In this document: positions 15,797-55,706 of the stretch, one piece after another | Numbering within the stretch: position 1 is the first letter of the stretch | Layout: each line of letters opens with the position of its first letter | Source of the DNA: Betaproteobacteria bacterium | GTDB lineage: Bacteria > Pseudomonadota > Gammaproteobacteria > Burkholderiales > UBA3065 | Length of the DNA: 55,706 nucleotides | Direction of reading: 5' to 3' | Assembly (NCBI GenBank): GCA_009927815.1 | Contig: RFMI01000032.1 | Location: 1-55,706 of the forward strand | Position numbers and translations under genes: made by a program | The notes under the pieces: model-generated | Told to the model about the DNA's origin: nothing | What the model saw: only the letters and a program-made list of their open reading frames with translations | The model's database searches: none

Positions 15797-17227
15797 ACCC
15801 GTTCAGCAAACAGGGTCGTCAGATGTGGCTGCGAATCAGCCCAAGGCTGCTGCCGTTCGCCGACATCGCCACTGCCGACCTGCCTTTGGCGCGCTTGTTG
15901 CGGCTGTCGTTGTTCCAGGTGTCGGTGGGGCTGGTGACGGCTCTGTTGGTCGGTACCCTCAACCGGATCATGATCGTTGAGCTGGGCGTGGGTGCGTGGC
16001 TAGTGTCGCTGATGGTCGCGGTGCCTTTGCTGGTGGCGCCGTTTCGCGCCGTGGTGGGGTTCAAGTCAGATGTTCATCGGTCAGTTCTAGGGTGGCGGCG
16101 GGTGCCGTACATCTGGTTGGGGACCCTGATGCAGTTCGGCGGCCTGGCGATCATGCCGTTCGCCCTCATCTTGTTGTCGGGGGACTCGCATTGGCCCGCC
16201 TGGTTCGGTCAAGCCTCTGCGGCGCTCGCCTTCCTGCTGGTCGGAATGGGTGTGCAGACCACGCAGACCGCAGGTCTGGCGCTGGCCACCGACCTCGCTG
16301 CCGAAACCACCCGGCCGCGGGTTGTGGCGCTGATGTACACCATGCTGCTGCTGGGCATGATGACCAGCGGCATCGTCTTCAGCCTGCTGCTACAGGATTT
16401 CAGTCCGGTCAAGCTGATCAAGGTGGTGCAAGGCGCCGCCGCCTGCACCCTCGCGCTCAATCTCATCGCTTTGTGGAAGCAGGAGCCGCGGCGGCCGCAT
16501 CTGACCCATCCGAGTCTCGAGCGACCGACCTTTGCCGCCAGCTGGAACGCCTTCGCCGCCAATCCGACGACGTTGCGTTTCCTGGTCGCGCTGGGATTGG
16601 GTACGGCGGCATTCAATATGCAGGACATCGTCCTTGAGCCCTACGGTGCCCAAATTCTCGGACTCAGCGTGGCGGAGACCTCGTCGCTGACGGCGCTGAT
16701 GGCTGGCGGTGCGCTGTTCGCCTTCGCGCTGGCGGCGCGCGCTCTGGCGGCGGGCGTCAATCCCTATCGCCTGTCGGCGCTCGGGCTGGTGGTGGGGCTT
16801 TGGGCTTTTGCCGCGGTGTTGTTCGCAGATCCGCTTGAGTCGCCCTTGATGTTCCGGGTCGGTGTGGTGTTGATCGGTTTTGGCGGCGGCTTCTTTTCGG
16901 TGGGCACCCTGACATCTGCCATGGGGTTGGAAGAACGCGGTTTCACGGGCATGGCTTTGGGGCGCATGGGGTGCGGTTCAGGCCAGCTGCATGGGGCTTG
17001 CAATCGCGATCGGTGGCGCCCTGCGCGACTGGGTCTCCGCGCTGGGCGTGCACGGCTTGTTGGGCGAGGCCATGAATTATTCGTCCTCGGGGTACGCAAC
17101 GGTCTACGGACTGGAGCTGGTGCTGTTGTTTGCAGGGCTTGTAGTGATCGGGCCACTGGTTCGCAATCGCAGCGCATCGAGTCAATCAGAGGTTGGCAAG
17201 TTCGGTCTGGCTGAATTCCCCGGCTGA
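15793..17227 (+). CDS. lhaA: LhaA/PucC-family major facilitator, with an apparent 1-nt frameshift at 16959-16962
   Basis: Starts MNPFSKQGRQMWLRISPRLLPFADIATADLP; BCH2/PucC family TM protein; C-terminus continues in another frame as GAWGAVQASCMGLAIAIGGALRDWVSALG...EFPG*. Confidence 0.88.
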
Positions 17228-38497: not shown

Positions 38498-39030
38498 TCA
38501 GTGTGCCTCCTGGGCTAGCAGCGGTGCCACGTGCTCGGTAAAGAATGCCTCGTCGACCGGTCCGACCTGTTTGTAACGGATGACGCCGGCGCCGTCGATG
38601 ACGAAGGTCTCCGGCACGCCGTAGACCCGTAATCGATGCCGACCAGACCGTTGCGGTCGATGGCGATCTGCGTGTAAGGATTGCCACGCTGTGCCAGCCA
38701 TTCGCGGGTGTCGGCGGGCTCGTCCTTGTAGGCCAGGCCGACCAGCGGCACGGCGTTTTTGGCCGCGATGGCGAGCAGCAATGGGTGCTCGGCGACACAG
38801 GCGCCGCACCAGCTGGCGAACACGTTCATCAGCCAGACCTTGCCTTTGAGTGCGTCCGGGGTGACCACGGTCTGGCCCTCACTCAGAGCCGGCAGGCTGA
38901 AGGCCGGTGCCGGCTTGTCAACCAGCACTGAGGGCAGCTTGCGCGGGTCGTGCTGCAGGCCAATCACGAAGACCACTGCCAGTGCAATGAGCACCAGCAG
39001 CGGCAGGATGATGCGCAAGCGTCCGCCCAT
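38498..39030 (-). CDS. ccmG: thiol:disulfide interchange protein CcmG/DsbE, with an apparent 1-nt deletion near 38626-38628
   Basis: WLMNVFASWCGACVAEHPLL; adding one C (+ strand) gives GIDYGVYGVPETFVIDGAGVIRYKQVGPVDEAFF...QEAH*. Confidence 0.92.
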
Positions 39031-39032
39031 GC

Positions 39033-41074
39033 TCAGGCCTGCGCGGGCGACGAAGCCGATGCTGCATCGGTGGCCGGCGCAGCGGCGCGACGCAGGCGGT
39101 AGCGCCGATCGAACAGGGTGGTGCCCCGCCGATGGCCATCATGAGGCAGGCGATCCAGACCCAGGCCATGAACGGCTTGACGTAGATGCGCACACTCCAG
39201 CCTTGGTCGCTGGCGGCCTCGCCGGGCTTCGGTTCGACCGGTTCACCCAGCGAGACATACACGTCACGGAACATGCCGTAGTCGATCGCGGCTTCGGTCA
39301 TGACCTGCCGGCCGGCTTGGTACATGCGCTTTTGCGGCTCCATCAAGTAGATGACTTTGCCCTCACCCTCGGTGAGCTCGAACACCCCGTGTTGGGCCAC
39401 GTAATTAGGCCCGCTGCCCTGATCGACGCCGATGAAGGTGATGCGATTGCTGCCGACCTGCACGGTCTCGGCGGGCTTCATCACCAGGTCGCGCTCAAAC
39501 TCGTACGATTTGACCATGCTGACGCCGGCGACGAAGGCCGCGACGCCAAGGTGCGCAATGACCATGCCCCAGTAGCTCGCGCCGAGTTTGCCGGCCCTGG
39601 CTCCCAACGATCCGCTATCGCCATTGGTGGACAGCTTCGCCAGTTGCCGGCGGGCGTGGTCGGCGGTGCCCCAGGCGAGGATCAGCGCGCCGGTGAGGCC
39701 TAGCACAGTCAGCCACTTGAACGGTCCGAGCCACAGCACCGCCGCAGTGGCGAGCAACAGCGCCGCCAGCGTGGGCAGTAGCATCGGCCGCAACACTGCA
39801 GGCAGTGTCGACTCTTTCCAGCGTAGATTCGGCGCGACCGCCATGAGGTAGGCGGCAGGCAACAGCAGCGGCACGAACACCGCCTCGAAGTAGGGCGGTC
39901 CGACGGACATCTTGCGACCGCTGAGCACCTCGGCGAAAAGCGGATAGAGCGTGCCGAGCATCACCGCGCCCAATGCGGCGCTCATCAGCACGTTGTTGGC
40001 GAGCAAAAAGCTCTCGCGCGAGACCTTTCCAAAGCGCCCGCCGAGGCCAATGTCGCGCGTGCGCAACGCGTAAAGCACCAGCGAGGCGCCCACGATGAGC
40101 ATGAGCATCGACAGGATGAAGATTCCGCGCTTGGGGTCGGTGGCAAAGGCATGTACCGAGGTGAGCACACCGGAGCGAACCAGGAAGGTGCCGAGCAGCG
40201 ACAGTGCGAACGCCACCAGTGACAGCAGGATGGTCCAGCTCTTCAGCGCATCGCGTTTATCGGTGACCGCCAGCGAGTGGATCAGAGCGGTGCCGGCCAG
40301 CCAAGGCATCAGCGAGGCATTCTCGACCGGATCCCAGAACCACCAGCCACCCCAGCCGAGTTCGCGGTAGGCCCACCACGATCCCAGCAGAATGCCGATG
40401 GTCAAAAACGACCACGCGGCGTTGGCCCACGGCCGGCTCCAGCGCGCCCAGGTCGGGTCGAGGCGCCCCTCCATCAAGGCGGCCACGGCAAACGCGAACG
40501 CCACGGCAAAACCCACGTAGCCCATGTAGAGCATCGGCGGGTGGATGACCATGAACGGGTCTTGCAGCAACGGGTTCAGGTCGCGGCCCTCAGCCACCGC
40601 CGGCAAGAGGCGCTCGAAGGGATTGGAGCTGCTCAGCAGAAACAGCAAAAAGAAGGCTTGCAGCACCAGCAGCAGCGTCAGTACTCGAGCGCGATACCCC
40701 GCCGCCAGCGCGTTGGAGGCGAGTGCCACGGCTGCGGTCCAGCCGCACAGCATCAGGTTCCACAGCAGGAACGAGCCTTCGTGCGAACCCCAGGTGGCGG
40801 CGAATTTATATTGCAGCGGCAGCAGTGTGTTCGAGTTCTCGGCGACATTCAGCACCGAAAAGTCGCTGCCCATGAACAAGGTCGCCAGCAGCCCGAAACT
40901 GGCGGCGACCAGTACGAAGGTCAAGAACGCCGTGGTGCCAAGAATGCGATTGGCGGCAGCGAGGTCGACGCCCGGAGCCGCGACGCGGCGCAAGCCCCAC
41001 AAGTGCTGAAGGCCGATGACCAAGCTGGCGGCGAAGGCCAGCGACAGCAGCAGTTGTCCGATTTCAGCGATCAC
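39033..41074 (-). CDS. ccmF: heme lyase CcmF, with an apparent 1-nt insertion near 39124-39127
   Basis: WWAYRELGWGGWWFWDPVENASLMPWL; removing one C restores MMAIGGTTLFDRRYRLRR...AQA*. Confidence 0.95.
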
Positions 41075-41484
41075 TTTGCGTCCTTGCCCAGCTTGGGCGG
41101 CATGTAGTTCTCATCGTGTTTGGCGAGGATCTCGCTGGCGGAGAACACGCCAGATTTCAGCTCGCCCTGCGCCACCGCGCCCTTGCCCTCGCGGAACAAG
41201 TCAGGCAACACACCGGTGTAGCTCACCGGCACGCTGTGTTTGAGGTCGGTCATGCGGAAGCTGATGGTCAGGCCTTCGCGCTGGACGCTCCCAGTCTCAA
41301 CCATCCCGCCAATGCGCACCGACCGGCCGGACGGCGCCTCGCCAGCCAGCACTTGGGTCGGGGTGTAGAAAAACACCATATTGTCGTTGAAGGCCCGAAT
41401 CACGCCCCACGCGGTCGCAACGACGGCGACGGCGATAGCAACGATCCACAGCAGGCGTTTGCGGCGGGTGGGCGATTTGATCAT
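41071..41484 (-). CDS. ccmE: heme chaperone CcmE
   Basis: 137 aa; VFFYTPTQVLAGEAPSGRSVRIGGMVETGSV ... VLAKHDENYMPP-type C-terminus (ILAKHDENYMPPKL). Confidence 0.96.
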   Translation of the reverse strand: MIKSPTRRKRLLWIVAIAVAVVATAWGVIRAFNDNMVFFYTPTQVLAGEAPSGRSVRIGGMVETGSVQREGLTISFRMTDLKHSVPVSYTGVLPDLFREGKGAVAQGELKSGVFSASEILAKHDENYMPPKLGKDAK

Positions 41485-41612
41485 TCGGGCGCGGCGTCTT
41501 CTTCAATGAGGGCGCGAGCAGCGGCCTCGAGCCGTCGGGCTTGCCATGCGTCAGCCGCCAGCGCGAACAGGCCTAAGGCGTAGCTGATGACAATGGCGGT
41601 CAAGGCGGTCAT
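41481..41612 (-). CDS. ccmD: CcmD
   Basis: MTALTAIVISYALGLFALAADAWQARRLEAAARALIEEDAAPE; single TM between ccmC and ccmE. Confidence 0.8.
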   Translation of the reverse strand: MTALTAIVISYALGLFALAADAWQARRLEAAARALIEEDAAPE

Positions 41613-41613
41613 G

Positions 41614-42340
41614 TCAGATCTCCCGAACCCATTTGGCGCGCGCCTCGCGCAGTGCAAGCAGCCAACGGCCACGCACTAGAACAATGGCAGCGCAGGCAAA
41701 CCAAACGGCGAACGTGCATATCAGCAAAGTGATCTTCATCTCCGGGGCCATCCGGGCAGCTCCGGGTGCACCTATAGACATGCCCTGATGGAGGGTGTTC
41801 CAGAACACCACTGAGAAATAGATCAAGGGAATGTTGACCATGCCGACCACCGTGAACAGCGCCAGCGCCCGATCGGTCTTGTGTTCGTCCTCCACCAAAC
41901 TGGAGAGCGCCATCAATCCCAAGTAAATAAAGAGAAGCATGAGCTCCGAGGTGAGACGCGCGTCCCACACCCAGTAGGTGCCCCAGGTCGGCTTGCCCCA
42001 CAGCGATCCGGTAACCAGTGCCACCACGGTCATCCAGGCGCCAGTGGGCAGCAGGGCGCGCATCATCACCGCTGACACCGGGCTGCGCCAAATCCAGAAC
42101 AGCACCGCGTAGCCCGTGGCTACCGAGTACAGGAACATCGACATCCAGGCTGCAGGAACGTGCAGGTAGATGATGCGATACACCTCGCCCTGCTGGGCAT
42201 CGGTGGGGGTGCCCGCCAGCGCCAGCCACAGACCGGGAATCGCCAGCAGGACTGGCCGCGCGGGCGAGCCATACGGCGGCCGGCCCGCTCAGGCGAAAAA
42301 AAACCGGCGGTGAGCCGAGTTGCTTAAGGAACGTCAACAT
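41614..42340 (-). CDS. ccmC: CcmC, with an apparent 1-nt frameshift near its N-terminus
   Basis: MLTFLKQLGSPPVFFRLSG start; body QQGEVYRIIYLHVPAAWMSMFLYSVATGYAVLFWIW...LWGKPTWGTYWVWDARLTSELMLLFIYLG in another frame. Confidence 0.9.
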
Positions 42341-42391
42341 GACTCATATTCTAGCGTCCCTCGCGGGCTTGGCCCGGACAATCGCCAGCCA

Positions 42392-43756
42392 TCACTCGAT
42401 GGCAAGGTCGAGCACGCGACGCGCCATCGGCGGCACCAGCAGCAGCGACAGCGCGCTGATGCCCACCAGCGTCGCGAGGGGACCGGTCAGACTCTGGTCG
42501 GCTTGCGCCGCCGTCACCGTCGTCACGCCGAAGATCAGCACCGGGACGAACACCGGAAAGCTCATCAGGCTGATCAGGACCTGTGCTTGCCGCGCCATCA
42601 GCGCCAGAGCGCTAAACAGCACGGTGAAGGCACCCAAGGCCAACGTACCCGCCGCCAGCGACAGCGCCAGTGCGGCAATGCCGGCGGTGTCGAGGTTGTA
42701 GAGCAGTGCCAATGGCACGCTGTAGAGCGCCATTGGCAGGCCGAACAGCAGCCAATGGGCGATGACCTTGCCAGCCAGCAATGCACTGAGCGGAAAGCTC
42801 ACGGCCTTGAGTTGTGACAGGATGCCGCTGCGGAAATCCGCTTCCAGATGGCGGCTGGCCGAGAGCAGGGTCACCAGCAGGGCGCTGACCCACACCATCC
42901 CTGGTGCGATGCGAGCCAGTTGTTGCGGGTCGGTGCCGATACCGAACGGGATCAGGCTCAGGATCATCCAGTGGAAGATGCCGGGCCACACCAGTTCGCG
43001 GGGCGCGGCCATGGCCAGGCGCAGTTCGCGGCGCAAGGCCCAGCGCAGCGGCGTCGGGCTGGTTCGGGTGCTGAAGGCGCCGGTAGCGATCGGAGCTGCC
43101 GCGGCGATTGCGGCCACCGGTTGCAGGGTCGCCGATCGGCCGCTCAACTCGACGCGGGCGTGGCACAGCGGCTCGAGTGTTGGGTCGAGTTCGGACAGCC
43201 GGCGGTGGGTGGCGACGACGGCGATGCCGCCAGCCGCCAGATGGTCTTTGAGCAGCTCGATGAACAGTGCAATGCCGGCCGCATCCAGCGCGTTGACCGG
43301 TTCATCAATCAGCCACACGCGACGCTGGCTCGCGGCCATCACCGCCAGCACCAATCGCCGCCGCTGGCCCTCAGAGAGCTGCTCGACTCGCTTGTTGGCT
43401 GCGCGTTGCAGACCGACCCGCTGCAGAGCCATGCGAGCCTCATCGGCGCCGAGTCGTACGGCCATTGGTTCGAGCGCAGCGTGCAAGTGTTCGCCCGCAG
43501 GCAACTCGCCACGCAAAGCCGGGTTCTGTTCGAACAAGAAGATCTCGCCATCGGCCGGCCAGACCGAATGCAGCGACAGCCGGGGCTGCAATCCCGCAAG
43601 CGTTCGCAGCAGCGTGCTTTTGCCGCTGCCATTCGGACCGACCAGTTCGACGAAGCGACCTGCGGGCAGGTCCACCGACAGGGACTCGGCCAAAGTGCTC
43701 TGGCCCCGGGTCAGCCGCAGGTCGCGGATCTGCAGGGTGTCGGTGCGGCCGGTCAT
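42392..43756 (-). CDS. CcmA-CcmB fused in one ORF (heme exporter ATPase plus permease)
   Basis: 454 aa; CcmA part ELVGPNGSGKSTLLRTLAGL, QLSEGQRRRLVLA, LIDEP; CcmB part ALRRELRLAMAAPRELVWPGIFHWMILSLIPFGIGTDPQQLARIAPGMVWVSALLVTLLS. Confidence 0.88.
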   Translation of the reverse strand: MTGRTDTLQIRDLRLTRGQSTLAESLSVDLPAGRFVELVGPNGSGKSTLLRTLAGLQPRLSLHSVWPADGEIFLFEQNPALRGELPAGEHLHAALEPMAVRLGADEARMALQRVGLQRAANKRVEQLSEGQRRRLVLAVMAASQRRVWLIDEPVNALDAAGIALFIELLKDHLAAGGIAVVATHRRLSELDPTLEPLCHARVELSGRSATLQPVAAIAAAAPIATGAFSTRTSPTPLRWALRRELRLAMAAPRELVWPGIFHWMILSLIPFGIGTDPQQLARIAPGMVWVSALLVTLLSASRHLEADFRSGILSQLKAVSFPLSALLAGKVIAHWLLFGLPMALYSVPLALLYNLDTAGIAALALSLAAGTLALGAFTVLFSALALMARQAQVLISLMSFPVFVPVLIFGVTTVTAAQADQSLTGPLATLVGISALSLLLVPPMARRVLDLAIE

Positions 43757-43770
43757 GGCGGAAAGGCCTA

Positions 43771-45087
43771 TCAGCGGGCCGGGGCAGGCTCGATCTGCAA
43801 GGGTACTGCCTCCTTGCCTACAGTCACCGGCGACTTCGCCGCCGACCAGTCACCGGGCTGGCGGATCGCGTTGCCGTTCATCGAGATGCGCGCTTCGACG
43901 GACACTTGCCGGAACTTCGACAGCTGCAATTGCGGACTCATGGCCTGCGTGTCGTCGAGTTGGAAAGGCAGCATGCGGCCGGCCACCAGATCAGCAACCG
44001 GGAGTCGCAGCACCGCCAAGGGCATCGGTGGGCCGTCCACCGCCTTGGCGAGAATGAAGAGCACGGCGGCGTCCGGGAGCGGCTGCTTTTTGAGCTGCTG
44101 GAGCGCTGCTGGACTGAGCGCCACTTGGCCGCGCACCACGGCGCTCGGGTCGGCGGGGCTGGCAGCTTGGGGTCTTGCGCCGGTGGTTGGTCCGGAGGCG
44201 GCAGGTTCGGGAGCGCCGGCGGGCGGTTGTTCGCCGAGTTGCGCGAGGATGTTGCCGATCTGTTGGTAGTCGGGCGACGCCGGCAGGAACTGGCTTTGCA
44301 GGGCTCGCCAGAGCTTGACAGCGTTGTCACGCTCGCCGGCCTGCATCGCTGCCGTTGCGGCAAGCGCCAGAGACTTTTGATGCTTCGGGTCGGACTTGAG
44401 TGCTTCCGCGACCAGTTCCATCGGCCGACCTGCCAGCTTTTCGCCTTGCATCATGGCCGTCGCGTCAGCCAAGTCGGCCAGCAGATCAGGGTGCCCGGGC
44501 GCCAGCCGCAGGGCTTGCTCCAACGCTTTTACGGCTTCGGGGTAGTTGCGTTGCAGGCCTCGCGACCGGGCCAAGATCACCCAACCCTCGAGGTTGTCCG
44601 GCTGCTCTTTAAGTTTGGCCTCGAGCGCTGCGATGCGCTCTTCGATCGAACCTTGCCCGCCGGGGTGGTTCTCGCCTGCTTTCGGCGGAGCTTCCCGAAT
44701 CAATACAGACGGCGTGCTGAAACCCCTAAACGCCAGCTTCATGGCCGGTTCATTGGGGTTGCCGATAAAGGCGTAAACGCTACCCGCGATGAGTACAACC
44801 GCCACCGGTATCCACGCAGAGTGGACCGTAATCCGGGTTGGTGCGGTCGACGGTGGGTCGCTGCGCTGGGCGGCGGCTTGGGATTGCCACTCCTCGATCA
44901 AGGTGGCACGCAGCGCCGGGTCGAGACTGGCGTCTTCGTCGATCTCTCGACGTCGCGCCACCATCACGGCCCACTCGGCAGAGTCATCGTTGGCGGGCAC
45001 ACGGCGTCCAGCGCGCGTCAGCGTCCACCACAGCACACAGGCGACAGCGGAAGCGATGAGGACGGTCAGGAGAATAAAGAGGAGCAT
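43771..45087 (-). CDS. ccmI: cytochrome c maturation protein CcmI (TPR)
   Basis: 438 aa; two N-terminal TM segments, TPR-like EGWVILARSRGLQRNYPEAVKALEQALRLAPGHPDLLADLADA. Confidence 0.85.
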   Translation of the reverse strand: MLLFILLTVLIASAVACVLWWTLTRAGRRVPANDDSAEWAVMVARRREIDEDASLDPALRATLIEEWQSQAAAQRSDPPSTAPTRITVHSAWIPVAVVLIAGSVYAFIGNPNEPAMKLAFRGFSTPSVLIREAPPKAGENHPGGQGSIEERIAALEAKLKEQPDNLEGWVILARSRGLQRNYPEAVKALEQALRLAPGHPDLLADLADATAMMQGEKLAGRPMELVAEALKSDPKHQKSLALAATAAMQAGERDNAVKLWRALQSQFLPASPDYQQIGNILAQLGEQPPAGAPEPAASGPTTGARPQAASPADPSAVVRGQVALSPAALQQLKKQPLPDAAVLFILAKAVDGPPMPLAVLRLPVADLVAGRMLPFQLDDTQAMSPQLQLSKFRQVSVEARISMNGNAIRQPGDWSAAKSPVTVGKEAVPLQIEPAPAR

Positions 45088-45301: not shown

Positions 45302-46165
45302 ATGTTGCAAGAAAGCGTTTTGAGTCTTGGGGGGTTTCGTTACCTCAAGCTCGCGGCTTTGGTCGCGTTGGCCAGCCTGATCGCCTACATCGGGGACGAC
45401 CCGCGGACGGTGGCCTATGGGGGTACCGTTCTCGGGTACGCGCTCGGCATCATTGGTGCGCTGCTCATCGTTTGGCTGATCCTCTTCGGCGCTCGCAAGC
45501 GATCCTACCGTTCGAGTCTTGGAACCGTTCAGGGCTGGCTGTCTGCCCACATCTGGTTGGGTTTGTCGCTGCTTGTGGTGGCCACCTTGCATACCGGTTT
45601 CCAGTTCGGTATCAACCTTCACACCTTGGCCTACGCCGTGATGGTGGTGGTGATTGTTAGCGGCATCTGGGGTGTGACGGTGTACATGCGCAACCCCTCG
45701 CTGATGAGCGGTTTGGTCGGCGGGAAATCGCTGCAGCAGCACGGCGTGATGCTCGCCGAACTCGACGCCGAATCGCGGAATCTGTGTAAGGACATGGGCG
45801 ACGACATCAAGCGGCTGGTCGAGGCATCGGCGCACACGCCCATCGTTAATGGACTATTTGGCCGCTTTGGCGGGCCTGGCCGTTGTTCGACCGGCGTTGC
45901 GGTGGAGGCACTCAAGGCGATCGGTCTCCGCGGTGACAAAGCGGTGCGTGATTTGTACGCGGTGCAGGTGAAGCGCCAGGCGCAACTGCAACGCATGCGC
46001 GACTTCCTGCGGGTCAAGGCATGGACCGACGTATGGCTGATGTTTCACGTGCCGTTGTCGGTTGGCCTGATTGCTTTGCTGGCGGCGCACATCGTCGCCG
46101 TCCTCTTCTATTACAACGGCAACGTGCTGTTTGACGGCAGCACATTCTCCTGGAGCAGGGGCTGA
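45302..46165 (+). CDS. integral membrane protein, predicted diheme b-type cytochrome
   Basis: 287 aa from MLQESVLSLGG; HIWLGLSLLVVATLH and HVPLSVGLIALLAAH, both HX13H inside hydrophobic segments. Confidence 0.75.
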   Translation: MLQESVLSLGGFRYLKLAALVALASLIAYIGDDPRTVAYGGTVLGYALGIIGALLIVWLILFGARKRSYRSSLGTVQGWLSAHIWLGLSLLVVATLHTGFQFGINLHTLAYAVMVVVIVSGIWGVTVYMRNPSLMSGLVGGKSLQQHGVMLAELDAESRNLCKDMGDDIKRLVEASAHTPIVNGLFGRFGGPGRCSTGVAVEALKAIGLRGDKAVRDLYAVQVKRQAQLQRMRDFLRVKAWTDVWLMFHVPLSVGLIALLAAHIVAVLFYYNGNVLFDGSTFSWSRG

Positions 46166-46167
46166 GC

Positions 46168-47760
46168 ATGAGCGGTCACACGCCTGAAGATCCGATTACG
46201 CTAGAGGTCCGCCGGCTGCAGCGTCCTATGGCGGGCCGCAGGCTGCTGTCGTGGCTGTTGTTTTTGGCGGGCGGTCTGGTCTTTCTCGTTGCGCCGCTTT
46301 TGGCTTCCTTGCACGGCGGTGATGCGGCGGCTCTGCGTGATCTGCCGGTGCTGGGGGCGATGTTCGCCGACGCGGCTGTCCAGGACGAGGCTCGCACCCT
46401 CGGCCGCCGCCCTGATCCGCACGCCACGCCCGACTTTGCCAAGGGCGATGCGGCCGGCAGTTATCAGCTTGCCGACCTGAGCAACTATCAAGCGGCGGCG
46501 CCCACGCTGATGGCGCTGGACCGCTGGTGGAATCCCGGCCCGCTGGCGTCTGCCCACCAGCCCTGGGCCAATGACTGTCGCGTTTGCCACAGTGCCGGCT
46601 TTGCTCAAGTCAAAGACGCCGATTGCCTGAGTTGCCACAAGGCGGTCAGTGATCACGTCGACCGTAAAGTGGTGCACGACGCCCGCTTGGATGTGCGGTG
46701 CGCCACCTGTCACCTTGACCACCAGGGCGCTTTTGCCTTGGCGGAGCAAAACAAGCACGCCGCCGGTCGCGATTGCGCCGACTGTCATGGCGATATCAAA
46801 AAGAGTTTTGCCAAGACCGAGACCCAGAACGTTCGCGATTTCGCCGACGAGCATCCCAACTTCCGGGTGCAGATCGCTCAGTCAGGCGAGCCAGGTGCTG
46901 GCGTTCGCGAGCTGCGGCGCGTGCGTTTGCCTGCCAAAGGGCAGCTCACAGAGCCGTCCAATCTGAAATTTCCGCATGATGTGCACGTCGCCAAGAAGGG
47001 CATCAGCAGCCCCGAGGGCAAGGTGGTGATGAAGTGCGCCAATTGCCACGAGCCCGACGCTAACGGCGTGGACTACAAGCCGGTCAATATGAAAGACCAT
47101 TGCCAAAGCTGCCACGCACTCAAGATGGAACCCAATCTGTCCAACCGTGAAGTACCGCACGGATCGGTGACCGAGGTGCTGAGCACTTTGGCCGAGTTCT
47201 ACAGCTTCGTCGGTAGCAGCGGTAGCGTGCCACGTGGCCCTGAGCCGCTGACCAAGACGATCGCCATCCAGCGCCCTGGCGAGCCGGATCGCGCGCCACA
47301 AAGCTTTGTACGGACTGGCGGCAGCGCTCAAGGTCGGGCCAGCGCCGCTGCGGTGGAGCTGTTCGAGAAGACCAGCTGCGTGATTTGCCACGAGGTCAGT
47401 CGCGTGGCTGGCCCGGGCAAGGCGGGCACGCCGGGCCGCGATTTGCCGCAGTGGAAGATCGCGGCGATCGCTCCCACCCACGTGTGGATGCCGAAATCGC
47501 CGTTTAGCCACGCCGCGCACACCAGTGCCAAGTGCGAGAGCTGTCACGCCGCGACTGAGTCCAAGAAGTCGAGCGATGTGCTGATGCCGGCTATCGACGG
47601 CTGCCGCGACTGCCATGCAGGCGCCAAGCCGGTGGCCGACAAGATCGTCTCCAATTGCAGCCTGTGCCACGGCTTCCATATTCCGGTAGCTAAACCCGAG
47701 GCTTCGCCAGCGAAGCCCTTGCAGAAGGTTGCTGCGGCAGCCGCCGGGGCGCGCCCGTGA
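46168..47760 (+). CDS. N-terminally membrane-anchored decaheme c-type cytochrome
   Basis: 530 aa; TM segment near the N-terminus; CRVCH, CLSCH, CATCH, CADCH, CANCH, CQSCH, CVICH, CESCH, CRDCH, CSLCH. Confidence 0.9.
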   Translation: MSGHTPEDPITLEVRRLQRPMAGRRLLSWLLFLAGGLVFLVAPLLASLHGGDAAALRDLPVLGAMFADAAVQDEARTLGRRPDPHATPDFAKGDAAGSYQLADLSNYQAAAPTLMALDRWWNPGPLASAHQPWANDCRVCHSAGFAQVKDADCLSCHKAVSDHVDRKVVHDARLDVRCATCHLDHQGAFALAEQNKHAAGRDCADCHGDIKKSFAKTETQNVRDFADEHPNFRVQIAQSGEPGAGVRELRRVRLPAKGQLTEPSNLKFPHDVHVAKKGISSPEGKVVMKCANCHEPDANGVDYKPVNMKDHCQSCHALKMEPNLSNREVPHGSVTEVLSTLAEFYSFVGSSGSVPRGPEPLTKTIAIQRPGEPDRAPQSFVRTGGSAQGRASAAAVELFEKTSCVICHEVSRVAGPGKAGTPGRDLPQWKIAAIAPTHVWMPKSPFSHAAHTSAKCESCHAATESKKSSDVLMPAIDGCRDCHAGAKPVADKIVSNCSLCHGFHIPVAKPEASPAKPLQKVAAAAAGARP

Positions 47761-49613
47761 TGAGTCGCGGTCTCAAGGGTGGTCTGGCGCTGATGCTGGC
47801 CTTGGCGGCGTCGCCGGCGTGGTCGGCGGCATGCCACTCGGTGAGTGCTGAGCCACAGGCGCTTTCGCAGACGGAGGTGGACGGCTTGGTCAAGACCACC
47901 GCAACGGTGGCGCGGCAGCTCAACCAAACCAAGGCCACCATTGCGGTCGTCGATCGCGTCGGCAATGTGCTGGCGGTCTGGCGCACTGGCGATGCGTTTG
48001 ATGTACGCATCCGCAGCGGCTTGGTCGCTAGTACGGCGTTTGGCGGATTCGGCTTGGAGAATGCGGTGTTGCCAAGTGCAGTGGGTGGCGATGCTCTGGC
48101 CGCCATTGCCAAGGCCGTCACGGGGGCCTATCTGTCGTCATCTGGCAATGCGTTCAGCACGCGTACGGCGAGCTTTATCGTGCAGAAGAACTTCATCCCG
48201 ACGATTCGCAACTTTCCTTCAGGGCCGCTGTTTGGCGTGCAGTTCAGCCAGCTGCCATGCGGCGATCTGGTGCAGAAGGGCGATTCTCTCGGCATCGGGC
48301 CGCGCCGTTCGCCGTTGGGCCTGTCGGCCGATCCGGGCGGATTCCCGCTGTACAAGAACGGTCGCGTGGTCGGTGGCATCGGCGTGGTGGTTGACGGCAG
48401 CGATTACGCACTCGACTTGAACCCGATTAACACTGATTACGACGTCGAGGAGGTGATTGCACAGGCTGGATCGAAGGCCTACGCCGCCCCAACCTGCATT
48501 CGCGCCGATCACATCACCGCCGGTGGCTTCAACCTGCGTTACTCGGACGCCGATAAGCGCCTGCCCAAGGCCCCAGCGATACAGTCCTTCGCAGGTGCGT
48601 ACATTGCCGTCACCGGTTATTTACCCACCGCGGCAGCGCGCGCGGGTCAGGCCTACGGCACGGCTTCGTCCGGCTATCAGTTGCAGGCTTCAGGGGACTT
48701 CGCGTCGCGCAGTGGCATGCTTTTGGTGGACAGCGGCGGGGCCAATCGGTATGCGCCGCGGGCCTCATTGGCACCGGCGAACGCCAGCGGTGGCTTGTCC
48801 GCGGGCGAAGTCACGACCCTCCTACAGCAGGCGCTAGGCGTTGCCAACCAGGCCCGCGCCCAGATTCGTCGCGCGCTCAACTCGCCGGCCGAGGTCACCA
48901 TCTCGGTGATCGACCGCGACGGTAACGTGCTTGGCCTGGTGCGCACGCCAGACGCCCCGGTGTTCGGCACCGACGTGTCCTTGCAGAAAGCGCGCACGGT
49001 GGCGTTTTTCTCTCGCACTGACGCCGCGACCCGCTTGCAAGCGCTTGGACAGTCCGCCTACGCCAGCAACGCCGTGGCCTTCTTTGGCAGCGGTGCATTG
49101 AGTGATGGCGTCGCCTTCTCCGACCGGGCCATCGGCAATATCGCTCGGCCGAATTTCCCTGACGGCATTGCCGGGCGTCCTCCGGGGCCTTTGTCCAAGC
49201 CTGAAGGCACGTGGAGCCCGTTCAATGACGGCCTGCAACTTGATCTGGTGGCGGGCAAGGTGCTCGATGCGCTCGTTGCAACTGGAATCAACAGCTGCAC
49301 AACGACAGCCGCCGGTATCGATAACGGCATCCAGATTTTCCCGGGAGCGGTGCCGATCTACCGCGGTTCGACTTTGATTGGCGCTATCGGTATTTCGGGT
49401 GACGGTGTCGACCAAGATGACATGATCGCGTCGCTCGGTCTGCAGCGTGCCTTCCTGGCACTCGGTGGCCGCTTTGGCACCGACCCCGGTCATGCCCCGC
49501 CGGCTATTCGCTCAGATCGGTTGGCGGTGCCAGGCCCGGGTACGTTGCGCTACGTGCAGTGCCCACAATCGCCCTTTATCAGCAGCCAGGCCCAAAATGT
49601 CTGCAACTTCTAG
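47757..49613 (+). CDS. secreted protein with two GlcG/HbpS-like (DUF336) regions
   Basis: 618 aa; signal peptide; ATIAVVDRVGNVLAVWRTGDAF and VTISVIDRDGNVLGLVRTPDAPVFGTDVSLQKARTVAFFS, each followed by IGVVVDG/IGISGDGVDQDD-type motifs. Confidence 0.72.
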   Translation: MMSRGLKGGLALMLALAASPAWSAACHSVSAEPQALSQTEVDGLVKTTATVARQLNQTKATIAVVDRVGNVLAVWRTGDAFDVRIRSGLVASTAFGGFGLENAVLPSAVGGDALAAIAKAVTGAYLSSSGNAFSTRTASFIVQKNFIPTIRNFPSGPLFGVQFSQLPCGDLVQKGDSLGIGPRRSPLGLSADPGGFPLYKNGRVVGGIGVVVDGSDYALDLNPINTDYDVEEVIAQAGSKAYAAPTCIRADHITAGGFNLRYSDADKRLPKAPAIQSFAGAYIAVTGYLPTAAARAGQAYGTASSGYQLQASGDFASRSGMLLVDSGGANRYAPRASLAPANASGGLSAGEVTTLLQQALGVANQARAQIRRALNSPAEVTISVIDRDGNVLGLVRTPDAPVFGTDVSLQKARTVAFFSRTDAATRLQALGQSAYASNAVAFFGSGALSDGVAFSDRAIGNIARPNFPDGIAGRPPGPLSKPEGTWSPFNDGLQLDLVAGKVLDALVATGINSCTTTAAGIDNGIQIFPGAVPIYRGSTLIGAIGISGDGVDQDDMIASLGLQRAFLALGGRFGTDPGHAPPAIRSDRLAVPGPGTLRYVQCPQSPFISSQAQNVCNF

Positions 49614-51723
49614 GACCTTCGCCGGGGTGCGCCCGCGTTCAGCAGCGAGCGCCGTCGCGGCGTTGATGGGTCTCGCGGTCCAACCGCTGTGGGCGGACGA
49701 GGTCGCGCCAGCGCTTGGCCCCAACGACCACAACCCGGCCTATATTGCGCGCAAGACGGTCGAGCAGATCCAGGTGGTGGCTCCCATCCTGCGCCTCCGG
49801 CTCGAGCCAGATCTGGGTTCTTTGGTGGTTGGCGAGGCCGATCGGGGTCAGCTGTTCACGGTGCTCGAGCAGCGTGCTGACTGGTTCCGCGTGCGTATCA
49901 AGTCAGATCCCGAGACCTCGGCTTGGGCTTTGCGTGAGCCGGCTGAGTACGGCGACTCCACCTTCGACCTCATCTACGCCGCTGGCGACACCGGCTTTGC
50001 CGCCGAGGCGATTGGCGCCACTGAGCCGGGAACCCCGGCCATCGACGCGGCGCGACCCGCTGTTCCGCGTCGCGTGGTTACGCTGCCGCCGATCGACCCC
50101 GAGCAACTGCCGCCCCCGCAGGCCAATTTGCCGCGAGAGTCGGTGCCCATCCCCGACCGCTGGCGGCTGATGCAGGCACTTGGTTTCAAGTTCCCGTGGT
50201 ACGACCCGTACAACCAGAATGTGCTGAAGGGCGATATTCCGGTGCACGAGATCGGCGAGGAGTGGTTCTTCACCTTCACTGGCATCTCGGACTCGCTGGC
50301 GGAATTCCGTTCGACGCCGTTGCCCGTGTCGCAACAGATCGGCTTTCGCCCGGACGCCAACAACATCTACGGCCGCTATGACCAGCGGATCCTCGCGCAG
50401 AACCTGATCTTGAGTTTTGGGCTGGTCAAAGGCAACACAACCTACAAGCCGCCCGAACTGGAATTCCGGTTCGTCCCGGTGATCAACTACGTCAACGCAC
50501 GCCTGCCCGAGTCGGGTTTGTTGCGGGTTAATCCGCAAGAAGGCCTGTCGCGCGAGACCAGCTTCGTCGGCATTCAGGAAGCGTTTGTCGACTACCACTT
50601 GCGCAACGTGTCGGATCGCTACGACTTCGATTCGCTGCGCGTGGGCATTCAGCCCTTCACCAGCGACTTCCGCGGATTCCTGTTTCAGGACACGCAGTTT
50701 GGCGTGCGCCTGTTCGGCAACCGCCACAACAACGTCTACCAGTACAACCTGGCGTGGTTCCGACGCGTCGAGAAGGACACCAATTCGGGGCTTAACGACA
50801 TCACCCGACGTCTGCGGGACGATGACATTTTTGCTGCCAACGTCTACCGCCAAGACTTTCCGTTCACGGGCATGACGTCGCAGGGCACGGTTATCCACAA
50901 CCGCAACAATGAGGATTCGTTCCGCTACGACACGAACGGCTTCTTGGTGCGGCCGTCGCTGCTGGGCGACGCAAGGCCGCGCAAGTACCAGGTGACCTAC
51001 CTCGGGGCGACTTTTGACGGCCACACCGGCTTCGTGTTGCCCAAGCTGCGTCTTAACGTCAGCAGTTCGACCTATTTGGCGCTGGGCCATGACGACCACG
51101 GCGCGATCGCCGAGAAGCCGCAGGACATCCGCGCCTTCTTCCATGCCACCGAGGTGTCACGAGACTTCAGCTGGATCCGCCTTCGGGGCAGTTTCCTCTA
51201 CGCCAGCGGCGACAAGAACCCGTACGACGGTCGTGCGACTGGGTTCGATGCCATCTTCGAGAACCCCCAATTTGCCGGTGCCGACACCAGCTATTTCATT
51301 CGCCAAGGCATTCCGCTGATTGGCGGGGGCGGGGTTGCCCTGTCGGGCCGCAACGGCTTGCTGGTGTCCCTGCGCTCGAGCAAAGACCAAGGACAGTCAA
51401 ACTTCGTCAACCCAGGGCTACTTTTGCTGGGCATGGGCGCCGACTTTGACGTCAAACCGGAGCTGCGCCTGACTGCCAACGTTAACCACTTGCGCTTCGA
51501 CGAGACCGCCGTGTTGGGCGCCCTGCGCAATGAGCGCAACCCTGACAACTCGATTGGCATGGACTATTCGGTTGGCGCTCAGTGGCGGCCGTTCTATAAC
51601 CAGAACGTGATCATCAATGCCTCAATGTCGATGCTCTCGCCAGGCCAGGGCTTGAAAGACCTCTATGGCGACCGCAAGACACCGTTCTACTCTGGCTTCA
51701 TCAACGCCATCCTGACGTACTGA
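49597..51723 (+). CDS. putative large outer-membrane beta-barrel protein with N-terminal SH3-like domain
   Basis: 708 aa from MSATSRTFAG; signal peptide; SH3-like VVAPILRLRLEPDLGSLVVGEADRGQLFTVLEQRADWFRVRI; C-terminal half rich in alternating polar/aromatic strands, ends FINAILTY. Confidence 0.65.
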   Translation: MSATSRTFAGVRPRSAASAVAALMGLAVQPLWADEVAPALGPNDHNPAYIARKTVEQIQVVAPILRLRLEPDLGSLVVGEADRGQLFTVLEQRADWFRVRIKSDPETSAWALREPAEYGDSTFDLIYAAGDTGFAAEAIGATEPGTPAIDAARPAVPRRVVTLPPIDPEQLPPPQANLPRESVPIPDRWRLMQALGFKFPWYDPYNQNVLKGDIPVHEIGEEWFFTFTGISDSLAEFRSTPLPVSQQIGFRPDANNIYGRYDQRILAQNLILSFGLVKGNTTYKPPELEFRFVPVINYVNARLPESGLLRVNPQEGLSRETSFVGIQEAFVDYHLRNVSDRYDFDSLRVGIQPFTSDFRGFLFQDTQFGVRLFGNRHNNVYQYNLAWFRRVEKDTNSGLNDITRRLRDDDIFAANVYRQDFPFTGMTSQGTVIHNRNNEDSFRYDTNGFLVRPSLLGDARPRKYQVTYLGATFDGHTGFVLPKLRLNVSSSTYLALGHDDHGAIAEKPQDIRAFFHATEVSRDFSWIRLRGSFLYASGDKNPYDGRATGFDAIFENPQFAGADTSYFIRQGIPLIGGGGVALSGRNGLLVSLRSSKDQGQSNFVNPGLLLLGMGADFDVKPELRLTANVNHLRFDETAVLGALRNERNPDNSIGMDYSVGAQWRPFYNQNVIINASMSMLSPGQGLKDLYGDRKTPFYSGFINAILTY

Positions 51724-51745
51724 CCTGATTCGGCGACCCCTAAAC

Positions 51746-54700
51746 GTGTTCAAGCTGCCCCTTCGATCCCTGCCGACCAACGCCCTGATGCGCGGAGCCC
51801 TGTTGCGCGGCGCGTCCGTGCTGGCCTTGCTAGTGCCGGCGTTGCTGGGCGCAGCTTTGATGTACGAGCCGGCGAGTGCCTCCGAACGCAAGCTCACCGA
51901 GCGTCACTACGTGATGGCCCCCTCCGCGCCCAAGGCGCAGACCTGGGCGCAGGCCAAATCGAAGTCTGATGGCTGCATGACCTGCCACACCGAGACCGAC
52001 CAGCACACCATGCACGCCAACCCTGGCGTGGTGCTGGGCTGTACCGACTGTCACGGTGGCGACAACAGCATCCGCCGTGCTGAGAAGGGTCCCGAAGCCG
52101 AGCGCAAGCACCCGGCCTACGAGCGGGCGATGGAACTGGCGCACATCCTGCCGCGCGACGAGCATCTGTGGCAGGGTTCGCGCAACCCGGAGGGCAGCTA
52201 CGCTCGTCTCAACAAGGAGCACGCGGCTTTCGTTCGCTTCATCAACCCGGGCGATTTGCGCGTGGCGCGCGAAGCCTGCGGCGCCTGCCATCTGCCGATC
52301 ATCCAGGCGCAAGAACGCAGCTTGATGAGCACGTCCAGCATGCTCTGGGGCGGCGCTGCCTATAACAACGGCATCCTGCCGTTCAAGCGCTACATGCTCG
52401 GCGAGGCCTACACGCAAGACGGCACCGCAGCGGCCATCGTCAACCCGGTCAAGCCTGACGAAGATCTTTACGTCTTCAAGGGCGTGCTCGAGAAGCTCTA
52501 CCCGCTGCCGGCCTGGGAGACCATCCCGCCGGGCGATATCTTCCGTGTGTTCGAGCGTGGCGGTCGCGTCATCAACAGCAGCTTCCCCGAAATCGGCCTG
52601 CCCAACAGCAGCGGCACGTTGCAAAAGCTCGACGAGCCGGGCCGTCCCGACATCAAGCAGAGCAACCGCGGCCCGGGAACTGGCAACCGCATCTCGGTGC
52701 CGGTCATCAACCTGACCAAAACTCGCCTCAACGACCCGCACCTGTGGTTCCTCGGCACCAACGACAACCCGGGTGACTACCGCTCGTCCGGTTGCACCGC
52801 GTGCCACGTGGTCTACGCCAACGATCGTCAGCCCGAACACAGCGGGCCCTACGCGCAGTTCGGCAACATGGGCCGCACGCAGACCAAAGATCCGACTATC
52901 CCCAGGGATGAGTCCGGACATCCGCTCAAGCACGAGTTCACTCGTGCGATGCCGAGTTCGCTGTGTATGAACTGCCACATGCACCAGCCGAACATTTACA
53001 TCAACTCGTTCTACGGCAACATCCAGTACGACTACGAGCCGGACGCGCCGCGCATGTTCCCGGCCAAGCAGCACTATCCGACCGACGCCGAGATTCGCGA
53101 GGTCAACCAGCGCAATCCGGAAGAAGCGGTGATTCGCGGCAATTGGCGCGACCGTGACTTCCTCAACGACCTTTGGCTCAAAAACGGCGAGATGAAGGAC
53201 ACCCAGTTCGCCGACTACCACGGCCACGGCTGGGCGTTCCGCGCAGTGTTCAAGCGCAACCGGAAGGGCAATCTGCTGGACAAAGTTGGCAACATCGTCA
53301 GCGACGATGATCCGGACAAGTTCAAGAAGGCGGTGCACATGGCCTCGATCCACATGGATCTGGGTATGCACTGCGTCGACTGCCACTTCTCGCAAGACAT
53401 GCACGGCAACGGCCACATCTATGGCGAAGTGGCCGCCGCGGTAGAGATCGATTGCGCCGACTGCCACGGCACCGCCAAGAACTACCCGACCCTGCACACC
53501 AGCGGTCCGGCGTCGCGTCCGGGCGGCATGGACCTGACCCTGCTCAAGACCCAGGATGGTCGCAAGCGCTTCGAGTGGCGCGACGGCAAGCTGTATCAGC
53601 GCGCTGCGCTCGACCCCAACAAAGAGTGGGAAATGTCGCTGGTGAAGGACACGGTCAATCCCAAGCACCCGCAGTACAACGAAAAGGCGGCGCGGGCCAA
53701 GCTCATGGCTGCCGGTGAGGACGGCCGCAACGGCAAGTGGGGTCAGGGTGTCGACAAGCTGGCCCACGACAACGACAAGATGTTGTGCTTCACCTGCCAC
53801 TTGAGCTGGACCACCAGTTGTGCGGGCTGTCACTTGCCGATTCAGGCCAACTGGAAAACCGAACGCAACCACTTTGAGGGCGGCGAGACACGCAACTACG
53901 CCACCTACAACGTGCAAGTCGCGCGCGACGACATGTTCTTCCTTGGCAAGCACGGCCCGGTCAAGAACAGCCGCATCGCACCGTTCCGCTCGAGTTCAGC
54001 GTTGGTGCTGTCCTCCATGAACAGTAACCGCGAGCGCATCTACTACCAGCAGCCGCCGATCGCTGCCAGCGGCTTCTCCAGTCAGGCGTTTGCGCCGCAT
54101 TACCCGCACACCGAGCGCAAGGAAGAGACCAAGACCTGTACCGACTGCCACGTCTCGCGTGACAACGACAACAACGCAATCATGGCGCAGCTGCTGTTGC
54201 AGGGTACTAATTTCGTCAACTTCGTCGGCCGCTATGCTTGGGTTGGCGCCGAGAAGGACGTCGAGTCGGTGGGTGTGACCGAGTGGGATGAGCCGCAGGC
54301 GGTGCTGGGTTCCTACCTGCAGAAGTACGCCTACCCCGACTGGTATGCGGAGCACCAGGCGGCCGGTCGCGAGATCGTTGACACCCCGCGCCACGAAGCG
54401 GCCAATCACTTGGCGACGCCGAGTGGGGATGCGGCGCGCTGTCTGCAGATGCGCGGCGAGTACCTGTTCGTTGCCGAGGGCAAGGGTGGCTTCCGCGTGT
54501 ACGACATCGCCGGCAACGGCAACAAGGGTGTGAGCCAGCGCATCATCACTGCGCCGTATTCGCCGCTGGGGCAAGACACGCATGTGCCGTCGAAGAACGC
54601 CACCTGCGTTGCGCTGCCAACCAACCAGCCGATTGCGCCGACGCGCAACGAGGGCGACCTGATGCGCAAGGTCAACCTGGAGCAGCCGTTCCATCCGATC

Positions 54701-55618
54701 TACCACTACGCCTTCGTGGTCGATGCCGAGGAGGGTCTGTACGCAGTCAACCTCGACACCTTCGCCGACGGTGAGGCGCGCAACAATTTCCTCAAGCGTG
54801 CCGTGACGTGGAATCCGAATGGCATGCTGAACGGCGCGCGGCACATCGTTGTGGCGGGCCACTACGCCTACATCACCACGCCGAAGGGTCTTGAGATCGT
54901 CGACCTTGACGACCCGCTGCACCCCAAGCCCCTCGCCTCCATCCCGCTGAACGACGCCCGGGCGAGCGCGGTGCAGTTCCGCTATGTCTACGTGACGACT
55001 GCGGAAGGCTTGCGCGTGGTCGACATCACCAATATGAAGCCGAAGCTTTTGCCGGCGGTGGTACCGCTTAAGGATGCGCGCCGCGTCTACCTGGCCCGTA
55101 CCTATGCCTATGTGGCGGCCGGCGCCGAGGGTCTGGCGATCGTCGACATCGAGAAGGCCGATAAGCCGCGCGTGTATCAAATGTTCGACGCCGACGGCAA
55201 GATCAACGATGCCCAGGACGTGATTGTCGGCAGCACCAACGCATCGTTGTTCGCCTACATCGCTGATGGCCGCAATGGCCTCAAGGTGCTGCAACTGACC
55301 TCACCTGAAAGCCAGCCCGGCTTCTACGGTTTCTCGCCAGAGCCCAAGCCTGAGCTGATCGCTTGGCGCAAGACCACCTCGCGGGCCTTGGCGCTGAGTA
55401 AAGGTCTCGACCGTGACCGTGCCGTGGACGAGACCGGTGGGCAGATCGCCATCGTCGGCCGTATCGGCGCACGGCCGTTCACCCGCAAGGAGATGGACAA
55501 GATGTACTTGAATCCCAAGGGTGAGCTGTGGACGGTAACCGACCGCGGCCAGTCGGGCGACTATGTGCCGCGCAAGGCGCCAACCGCCGGGGCCAGTGAC
55601 AAACGAGGCAAGCCATGA
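51746..55618 (+). CDS. giant decaheme c-type cytochrome with C-terminal LVIVD-like beta-propeller
   Basis: 1290 aa; ten CXXCH (CMTCH, CTDCH, CGACH, CTACH, CMNCH, CVDCH, CADCH, CFTCH, CAGCH, CTDCH); repeats such as GHYAYITTPKGLEIVDLDDPLHPKPLASIPL, RYVYVTTAEGLRVVDITNMKPKLL, TYAYVAAGAEGLAIVDIEKADKPRVY. Confidence 0.88.
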   Translation: MFKLPLRSLPTNALMRGALLRGASVLALLVPALLGAALMYEPASASERKLTERHYVMAPSAPKAQTWAQAKSKSDGCMTCHTETDQHTMHANPGVVLGCTDCHGGDNSIRRAEKGPEAERKHPAYERAMELAHILPRDEHLWQGSRNPEGSYARLNKEHAAFVRFINPGDLRVAREACGACHLPIIQAQERSLMSTSSMLWGGAAYNNGILPFKRYMLGEAYTQDGTAAAIVNPVKPDEDLYVFKGVLEKLYPLPAWETIPPGDIFRVFERGGRVINSSFPEIGLPNSSGTLQKLDEPGRPDIKQSNRGPGTGNRISVPVINLTKTRLNDPHLWFLGTNDNPGDYRSSGCTACHVVYANDRQPEHSGPYAQFGNMGRTQTKDPTIPRDESGHPLKHEFTRAMPSSLCMNCHMHQPNIYINSFYGNIQYDYEPDAPRMFPAKQHYPTDAEIREVNQRNPEEAVIRGNWRDRDFLNDLWLKNGEMKDTQFADYHGHGWAFRAVFKRNRKGNLLDKVGNIVSDDDPDKFKKAVHMASIHMDLGMHCVDCHFSQDMHGNGHIYGEVAAAVEIDCADCHGTAKNYPTLHTSGPASRPGGMDLTLLKTQDGRKRFEWRDGKLYQRAALDPNKEWEMSLVKDTVNPKHPQYNEKAARAKLMAAGEDGRNGKWGQGVDKLAHDNDKMLCFTCHLSWTTSCAGCHLPIQANWKTERNHFEGGETRNYATYNVQVARDDMFFLGKHGPVKNSRIAPFRSSSALVLSSMNSNRERIYYQQPPIAASGFSSQAFAPHYPHTERKEETKTCTDCHVSRDNDNNAIMAQLLLQGTNFVNFVGRYAWVGAEKDVESVGVTEWDEPQAVLGSYLQKYAYPDWYAEHQAAGREIVDTPRHEAANHLATPSGDAARCLQMRGEYLFVAEGKGGFRVYDIAGNGNKGVSQRIITAPYSPLGQDTHVPSKNATCVALPTNQPIAPTRNEGDLMRKVNLEQPFHPIYHYAFVVDAEEGLYAVNLDTFADGEARNNFLKRAVTWNPNGMLNGARHIVVAGHYAYITTPKGLEIVDLDDPLHPKPLASIPLNDARASAVQFRYVYVTTAEGLRVVDITNMKPKLLPAVVPLKDARRVYLARTYAYVAAGAEGLAIVDIEKADKPRVYQMFDADGKINDAQDVIVGSTNASLFAYIADGRNGLKVLQLTSPESQPGFYGFSPEPKPELIAWRKTTSRALALSKGLDRDRAVDETGGQIAIVGRIGARPFTRKEMDKMYLNPKGELWTVTDRGQSGDYVPRKAPTAGASDKRGKP

Positions 55619-55706
55619 CAACCGCCATTCATTCCATCCTGACGTCCGTACTGGGCGCTGCTGCGGCGCTGATGCTGGTTGCAGCGCCGGTGCAGGCCCG
55701 GACGAC
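55615..55706 (+). CDS. start of a secreted protein, truncated by window edge
   Basis: MTTAIHSILTSVLGAAAALMLVAAPVQART signal peptide; ATGA overlap with the preceding cytochrome gene. Confidence 0.65.
   Translation, partial: MTTAIHSILTSVLGAAAALMLVAAPVQART

Follow-up and report, generated by a model that had tools for sequence, protein, structure and literature searches.

A conserved seven-gene operon of proteobacteria predicted to encode an NAD(P)H-fed trans-envelope electron conduit

The window analysed here, a stretch of 55,706 bases from a betaproteobacterial phototroph, is a complete contig (RFMI01000032.1, here C34) of a 1.76-Mb draft genome that is 94% complete. From position 45302 to its end it carries most of a seven-gene operon, g1 to g7, which is real and widely conserved. 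The anatomy of the products suggests that they form an electron conduit through the cell envelope, belonging to the PCC3/PCC4 lineage, which would draw on NAD(P)H, would most likely export electrons and is predicted to be switched by signals. We assign this interpretation a probability of roughly 0.52. A sequence-only reading of the window had already proposed a conduit, and the parts do fit a path from the inner membrane outward. It had also considered the system a candidate new one and the quinone pool its likely inner partner, and neither point was supported: g1 carries the signature that He et al. described in 2017 for PCC3 and PCC4 (PMC5566968), and the g7 product is an NAD(P)H-type flavo-iron-sulfur protein that is fused to g1 in two genomes.

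A conserved seven-gene operon

The operon genes of the window all lie on the plus strand. The first, g1 (45302–46165, 287 amino acids (aa)), encodes a diheme b-type inner-membrane protein with the PCC3/PCC4 inner-membrane protein (IMP) signature and is followed by g2 (46168–47760, 530 aa), encoding a predicted inner-membrane-anchored periplasmic decaheme cytochrome c. Next come g3 (47757 or 47760 to 49613, 617–618 aa) for a tandem HbpS/GlcG-like secreted protein, g4 (49597–51723, 708 aa) for an N-terminal SH3-like domain joined to a modelled outer-membrane β-barrel, and g5 (51746–55618, GTG start, 1290 aa) for a decaheme cytochrome fused to a C-terminal LVIVD β-propeller. The sixth gene, g6, starts at 55615 and is broken by the contig end at 55706 after 30 signal-peptide-like codons. 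This set of five complete genes and a truncated sixth on one strand had been called before, and its open reading frames (ORFs) were confirmed at the same positions. The short gaps and overlaps were found as described except at the g2/g3 junction, which reads GTGATG, the stop TGA overlapping ATG, and not ATGA.

A profile search beyond the contig end, a step suggested when the window was first read, located the rest of the operon at the extreme end of another contig of the same genome (C50, 11,638 b). It comprises the remainder of g6 (C50:10394-11635, minus strand), encoding a cytochrome c554-like protein with four CXXCH motifs and one CX4CH, all invariant, and five predicted hemes, and g7 (C50:7931-10339), whose product combines a FAD/NAD(P)H domain of the TrxR type with two cyclic-nucleotide-binding domains and has four predicted [4Fe-4S] clusters. 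A second genome of the genus (G096, locus L037) has the whole operon uninterrupted, with the genes in numerical order from g1 to g7. The 20 c-type heme motifs counted earlier in the window operon are also present, ten CXXCH in g2 and ten in g5. Exactly ten occur in 67 of 69 homologues of g2 and in 97 of 98 of g5, and the Cys and His residues of these motifs are nearly all invariant in the alignments. Because of this constancy we do not consider the motifs a product of chance.

The proposal had been made dependent on co-occurrence of the genes in other genomes, where we found them to form one conserved unit. Of 98 loci, 32 have the full set of seven and 58 have six or more; incomplete loci are often truncated, either by the end of a contig or by the limit of the 10 kb of flanking sequence fetched. 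A pattern scan of GTDB contigs yielded 494 stretches related to g5; according to the submitters' titles the best 80 of these comprise 56 from Alphaproteobacteria, 13 from Gammaproteobacteria, 7 from Betaproteobacteria and 4 that are unplaced. Within the order of the window a full or near-full g5 is found in about 20 of 399 genomes (64–91% identity). In alphaproteobacteria the operon is divided into g7-g1-g2 and g6-g3-g4-g5, which suggests an inner and an outer module. Sphingobium, Brevundimonas, Caulobacter and Limnobacter are genera generally regarded as aerobic heterotrophs, and most of the named carriers belong to genera known as such. A link to photosynthesis, as read from the neighbouring genes of the window, was rejected: outside the window's genus reaction-centre genes are no commoner in carriers (1 of 16) than in non-carriers (41 of 378).

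Two loci deserve separate mention. One contig (G279:C116) holds two complete operon copies in opposite orientation (L043 and L044), with the g5 genes about 14 kb apart and each about 68% identical to that of the window. A metagenome-assembled genome (MAG) titled Klebsiella pneumoniae contains a contig of the window's betaproteobacterial genus (L055, CAMDGF010000001.1; g5 91% identical) and is evidently mislabelled.

The inner module and its relation to PCC4

He et al. defined the inner-membrane proteins of PCC3 and PCC4 by two WX3HX13H motifs and SGXXG (PMC5566968). g1 agrees with this signature at every residue (W79-X3-H83-X13-H97, S120-G121-X2-G124, W245-X3-H249-X13-H263), and the positions are invariant or nearly so in 28 homologues. 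With its two HX13H motifs the earlier prediction of a diheme b membrane protein stands; no sequence relative of g1 was found in the PDB. In g7 we identified FAD (GxGPxG) and NAD(P) (GxGDA) motifs; a CXXC as in disulfide reductases is not conserved. In both cyclic-nucleotide-binding domains the phosphate-binding cassette keeps its invariant Glu and Arg (FGE...RRRTATV and VGE...PRSATV), and 16 invariant ferredoxin cysteines match the four predicted clusters (Fer4_11, 37.2 bits). The PDB relatives of g7 are PKA/PKG regulatory domains, TrxR-like FNR and HycB-type ferredoxins.

Direct evidence that g7 and g1 work together comes from two genomes of one family in which they form a single ORF of 1118–1123 aa (L165:3052-6423, L166:7850-11206). 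A g2 with nine CXXCH motifs comes after the fusion, no homologue of g3 to g6 was detected within the 18–20 kb fetched, and by gene content these loci appear to be a reduced variant consisting of the inner module only. In L165 a putative TonB-receptor-like ORF lies near the fusion. Apparent g6-g7 and g3-g4 fusions (L039, L040, L049, L063, L109, L119, L134) were traced to over-long ORF starts or runs of N, and only the two g7-g1 fusions stand. A flavin module of NAD(P)H type that would supply electrons to a membrane-spanning diheme b protein, the two being fused in two genomes, recalls the NADPH oxidase/ferric reductase superfamily (PF01794, Ferric_reduct). However, g1 scores 21.7 bits against a Pfam cut-off of 28, the flavin fold is TrxR-type with 4Fe-4S clusters in between, and the chain continues into multiheme cytochromes.

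Most relatives of g2 have an FHA-like cytoplasmic N-terminal domain, then a membrane helix and then ten hemes; the domain matches PF00498 in 20 of 27 members and is present in about 24 of 27 by alignment. No report combining an FHA domain, a multiheme cytochrome and electron transfer turned up in the literature covered, which leaves most subscription papers outside. A second hint of regulation comes from adjacent genes: of 98 loci, 20 encode a CHASE2-type nucleotide cyclase, 23 a CpdA/SpdA-like phosphodiesterase and 33 one or both. Genomes have one to seven CHASE2 genes. Among those examined, 13 have only one, and in 8 of these it is located at the operon, a fraction biased by the choice of genomes partly for this neighbor. 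Each neighbor state needs 10 changes on a g5 tree, a count inflated by missing sequence, and the association therefore appears to recur. In the genome of the window a CHASE2 cyclase lies near g7 on C50. Within the window, a GAF-GAF-PAS protein with a class III nucleotide cyclase domain (35773–38019, plus strand), encoded between bch genes and the ccm and electron-transfer genes, is a possible source of the cyclic nucleotide for candidate binding by g7. Upstream FNR, CRP, Fur, PpsR and LexA-like boxes showed no convincing enrichment (FNR/Anr boxes with two mismatches allowed: 16 observed, 8.1 expected), and no Fur box was matched.

The simplest reading of this anatomy is an electron route from g7 via g1 and g2 to g6 and g5 and on to the outer module. 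In the cytosol, the FAD of g7 would accept hydride from NAD(P)H, and electrons would travel along the four [4Fe-4S] clusters of this protein to g1. The two b hemes of g1 would take them over the inner membrane to g2, the anchored decaheme. Pentaheme g6 and decaheme-propeller g5 would then deliver them to an outer-membrane module of the 18-strand barrel g4 and the HbpS-type g3, where an outer or surface acceptor would be reduced. The g7-g1 fusions and the cyclase and phosphodiesterase neighbors argue for an NAD(P)H-fed, regulated conduit, and the two cyclic-nucleotide-binding domains of g7 together with the FHA-like domain on most g2 relatives suggest that intracellular signals would switch the flow. 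Since the cytoplasm is negative, an electron leaving it from NAD(P)H would run downhill twice while the reverse path from mineral-level donors would not, which favors export.

By sequence, the inner module is kin to PCC4, while the cytochrome set, the flavin module and the outer module differ. PCC4 is a proposed conduit of unproven function with three periplasmic multihemes of 4, 5 and 10 sites, no extracellular multiheme, a pfam13247 4Fe-4S protein adjoining the IMP, and a porin (PMC5566968). A search with the g1 profile through 398 genomes across the phylum recovered four clusters fitting this type (L168, L169, L173 and L174). L173 encodes a five-heme cytochrome, an unassigned 459-aa protein, an FNR-type flavoprotein with 2Fe-2S and an IMP, together with homologues of three operon products: a four-heme cytochrome (g6), a decaheme (g2) and a protein with cyclic-nucleotide-binding and 4Fe-4S parts (C-terminal part of g7). 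The gene sets of the other three loci overlap with it. The window operon shares with these loci the IMP motifs, the 4Fe-4S protein adjoining the IMP (g7 being homologous to the PCC4-type protein), the decaheme and tetra-CXXCH cytochromes and an NAD(P)H-type flavoprotein; a porin is a further common feature with PCC4 as reported by He et al. In contrast to the separate FNR with 2Fe-2S of the PCC4-type loci, its flavin part is TrxR-type and fused to the iron-sulfur protein. It adds the HbpS tandem, the SH3-barrel and the decaheme-propeller, and its cytochromes have 10 (g2), 10 (g5) and four CXXCH plus one CX4CH (g6) sites without a separate five-site cytochrome. The NAD(P)H-fed reading also departs from the quinone-linked model of He et al. 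for PCC3 and PCC4 (PMC5566968). In all four PCC4-type loci the decaheme has a Cys-rich N-terminus (RPNxxWxCGxxxxxxxCxxGP-like), a candidate cytoplasmic domain on an anchored decaheme.

Two further loci, L171 and L172, look like PCC3, another proposed type (PMC5566968; PMC10734462). Shared with it are the IMP signature, a porin with inner and outer multiheme cytochromes, and an IMP gene followed by an anchored or periplasmic cytochrome. However, its cytochromes have reported medians of 34 and 21 hemes compared to 10, 10 and 5 sites here, and in L171 and L172 no g7 homologue was seen next to the IMP. A metagenomic study of June 2026 (PMC13264449) presents 11 unnamed "group 1" porin-cytochrome clusters with a 4–5-kb decaheme gene beside a porin of about 20 strands and a ferredoxin-NADP reductase nearby in 7 of 11. 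With a 3.9-kb g5, an 18-strand g4 model and a TrxR/FNR-like g7 the window operon resembles this anatomy, and the clusters are probably the same system, the likeness being one of description and not of compared sequences. For this group the text consulted describes neither signalling domains nor a fusion, and it mentions no HbpS or propeller parts and no homology to PCC4.

The outer module and competing explanations

The main parts of the proposed outer module agree with their earlier description. g3, a member of the HbpS/GlcG/EfgA family, matches PF03928 in two stretches (76 bits). Of 79 relatives, 61 have a lipobox-like motif, in many cases with poly-Gly after it, and most relatives are thus predicted lipoproteins. 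Directly before g3, eight alphaproteobacterial loci encode a conserved 150-aa secreted-looking protein (e.g. L069:5545-6003) for which no NCBIfam match was found. The model of g4 (predicted local distance difference test score, pLDDT, 72.6) shows an SH3-like domain at about 49759–49977 and an 18-strand barrel at about 50263–51723, with AlgE as nearest solved fold (E 2.8e-16) and OprD-type channels next. The C-terminal residue is aromatic in 92 of 92 homologues, no PDB relative was found by sequence, and the model supports the suggested outer-membrane barrel. In g5, ten CXXCH within residues 77–802, LVIVD repeats (61 bits) and a modelled propeller (about 829–1222) agree with a decaheme-propeller fusion; a PDB relative of the decaheme part was not found by sequence, nor did the literature covered contain a report uniting LVIVD, multiheme cytochrome and porin.

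In outline the operon resembles MtrCAB, MtoAB and PioAB in having an inner donor, a periplasmic decaheme, a barrel and a candidate outer decaheme. However, g2 reaches only 32.7 bits against the DmsE/MtrA family TIGR03508 (cut-off 192.2), the barrel is AlgE-like with no MtrB among the 50 matches listed, and g5 has no MtrC/OmcA family match. A paper on extracellular electron transfer in Methylobacter (PMC13322032), considered as a description of the same system, deals with an MtrAB-type system instead. The Ext operon of Geobacter (extHIJKLMNOPQS, PMC5877670) likewise has several multihemes, a porin and a b cytochrome, and g5 weakly matches ExtM. In contrast to the window operon, it contains a Rieske/bc-type b subunit and a rhodanese, and the match of g5 (63.3 bits) is far below the ExtM equivalog cut-off of 800. 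Judged by these features, the operon is distinct from MtrCAB, PioAB, PCC3 and Ext. No functionally characterised match was found, PCC3 and PCC4 being named predictions.

Several observations weigh against the conduit as drawn above. With 18 strands the barrel may not be wide enough to enclose a wire of the MtrA kind, which leaves the outer-membrane step unproven. The decaheme part of g5 gave no confident, usable model and a lipobox is absent in 94 of 96 relatives, for which reasons g5 may be periplasmic. At the inner membrane g1 may have a quinone site. With respect to switching, the FHA-like domain is missing from g2 in the window's genus and in Limnobacter, the canonical phosphothreonine-binding Ser and Arg are not conserved, making it doubtful as a phosphothreonine reader, and cyclase or phosphodiesterase neighbors occur in a minority of loci.

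If g4 does not surround a heme wire, the operon may instead serve to reduce a single soluble compound, such as heme, chelated iron or an oxyanion, at the cell surface or in the periplasm. This substrate would be admitted by g4 as channel and bound by g3, without a wire across the outer membrane. The likeness of g4 to AlgE and OprD-type substrate channels and the HbpS/GlcG/EfgA membership of g3 would suit such a function, as would a g5 propeller that could bind substrate and the similarity of g5 to ExtM, which belongs to a selenite/tellurite operon whose ExtI is a porin (PMC5877670). We consider this reductase rather unlikely, as no catalytic heme site was identified, the ExtM score is so low, and no Fur box was matched upstream. 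Electron uptake, with the chain running inward to g7 or quinone from Fe(II), Mn(II), minerals or a cathode as donor, or serving photoferrotrophy in the phototroph of the window, is less probable still: it was in Fe(II) oxidisers that homologues of PCC3/PCC4 first drew attention (PMC5566968), and carriers include a biocathode MAG (L079, Biocath_Alpha_33) and one named FeB_7 (L109), but most named carriers come from heterotrophic genera, reaction centres show no association outside the window's genus, and electrons moving from a donor of mineral potential to NAD(P)+ would oppose the membrane potential.

Neighboring genes and biological meaning

The operon is divergent from a ccm cluster on the minus strand (38918–45087), accessory in that it serves the making of c-type cytochromes. 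All five genes were confirmed when tested: CcmF (38918–41074), CcmE (41071–41484), CcmC (41614–42183), a CcmA-CcmB fusion (42392–43756) and a CcmH/CycH-like gene (43771–45087), the family of which adjoins the operon in 28 of 98 loci. Elsewhere in the window, a single ORF (15046–17214) combines a BchM-like Mg-protoporphyrin IX methyltransferase with a PUCC transporter domain; the two may be genuinely fused or may have been joined by an error of assembly. About 15 sphingomonad loci (L101, L106, L107, L113 and others) encode an acetolactate-synthase-like thiamine pyrophosphate enzyme (PRK08322, 882 bits) and a lactaldehyde-dehydrogenase-like aldehyde dehydrogenase, mostly directly upstream of g6.

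Proposed extracellular electron conduits have mostly been discussed in metal-cycling specialists and modelled as quinone-linked. The operon places a conduit-like machine in many ordinary aerobes among the alpha-, beta- and gammaproteobacteria, one carrier being a phototroph with a 1.76-Mb draft genome. It ties the predicted conduit to NAD(P)H and cyclic-nucleotide signalling, an unusual regulatory design, and links PCC4-type clusters to the same inner-membrane logic. As cultured carriers exist in Sphingobium, Brevundimonas and Limnobacter, its function is directly testable. Tentatively, and as a possibility that goes further than the conduit itself, the operon may encode an electron exporter that reaches across both membranes, is driven by NAD(P)H and is gated by cyclic nucleotides, a bacterial analogue of NADPH oxidase extended by multihemes to the surface, with which aerobes would dispose of reductant or act on surface substrates upon a signal rather than carry out dedicated mineral respiration.

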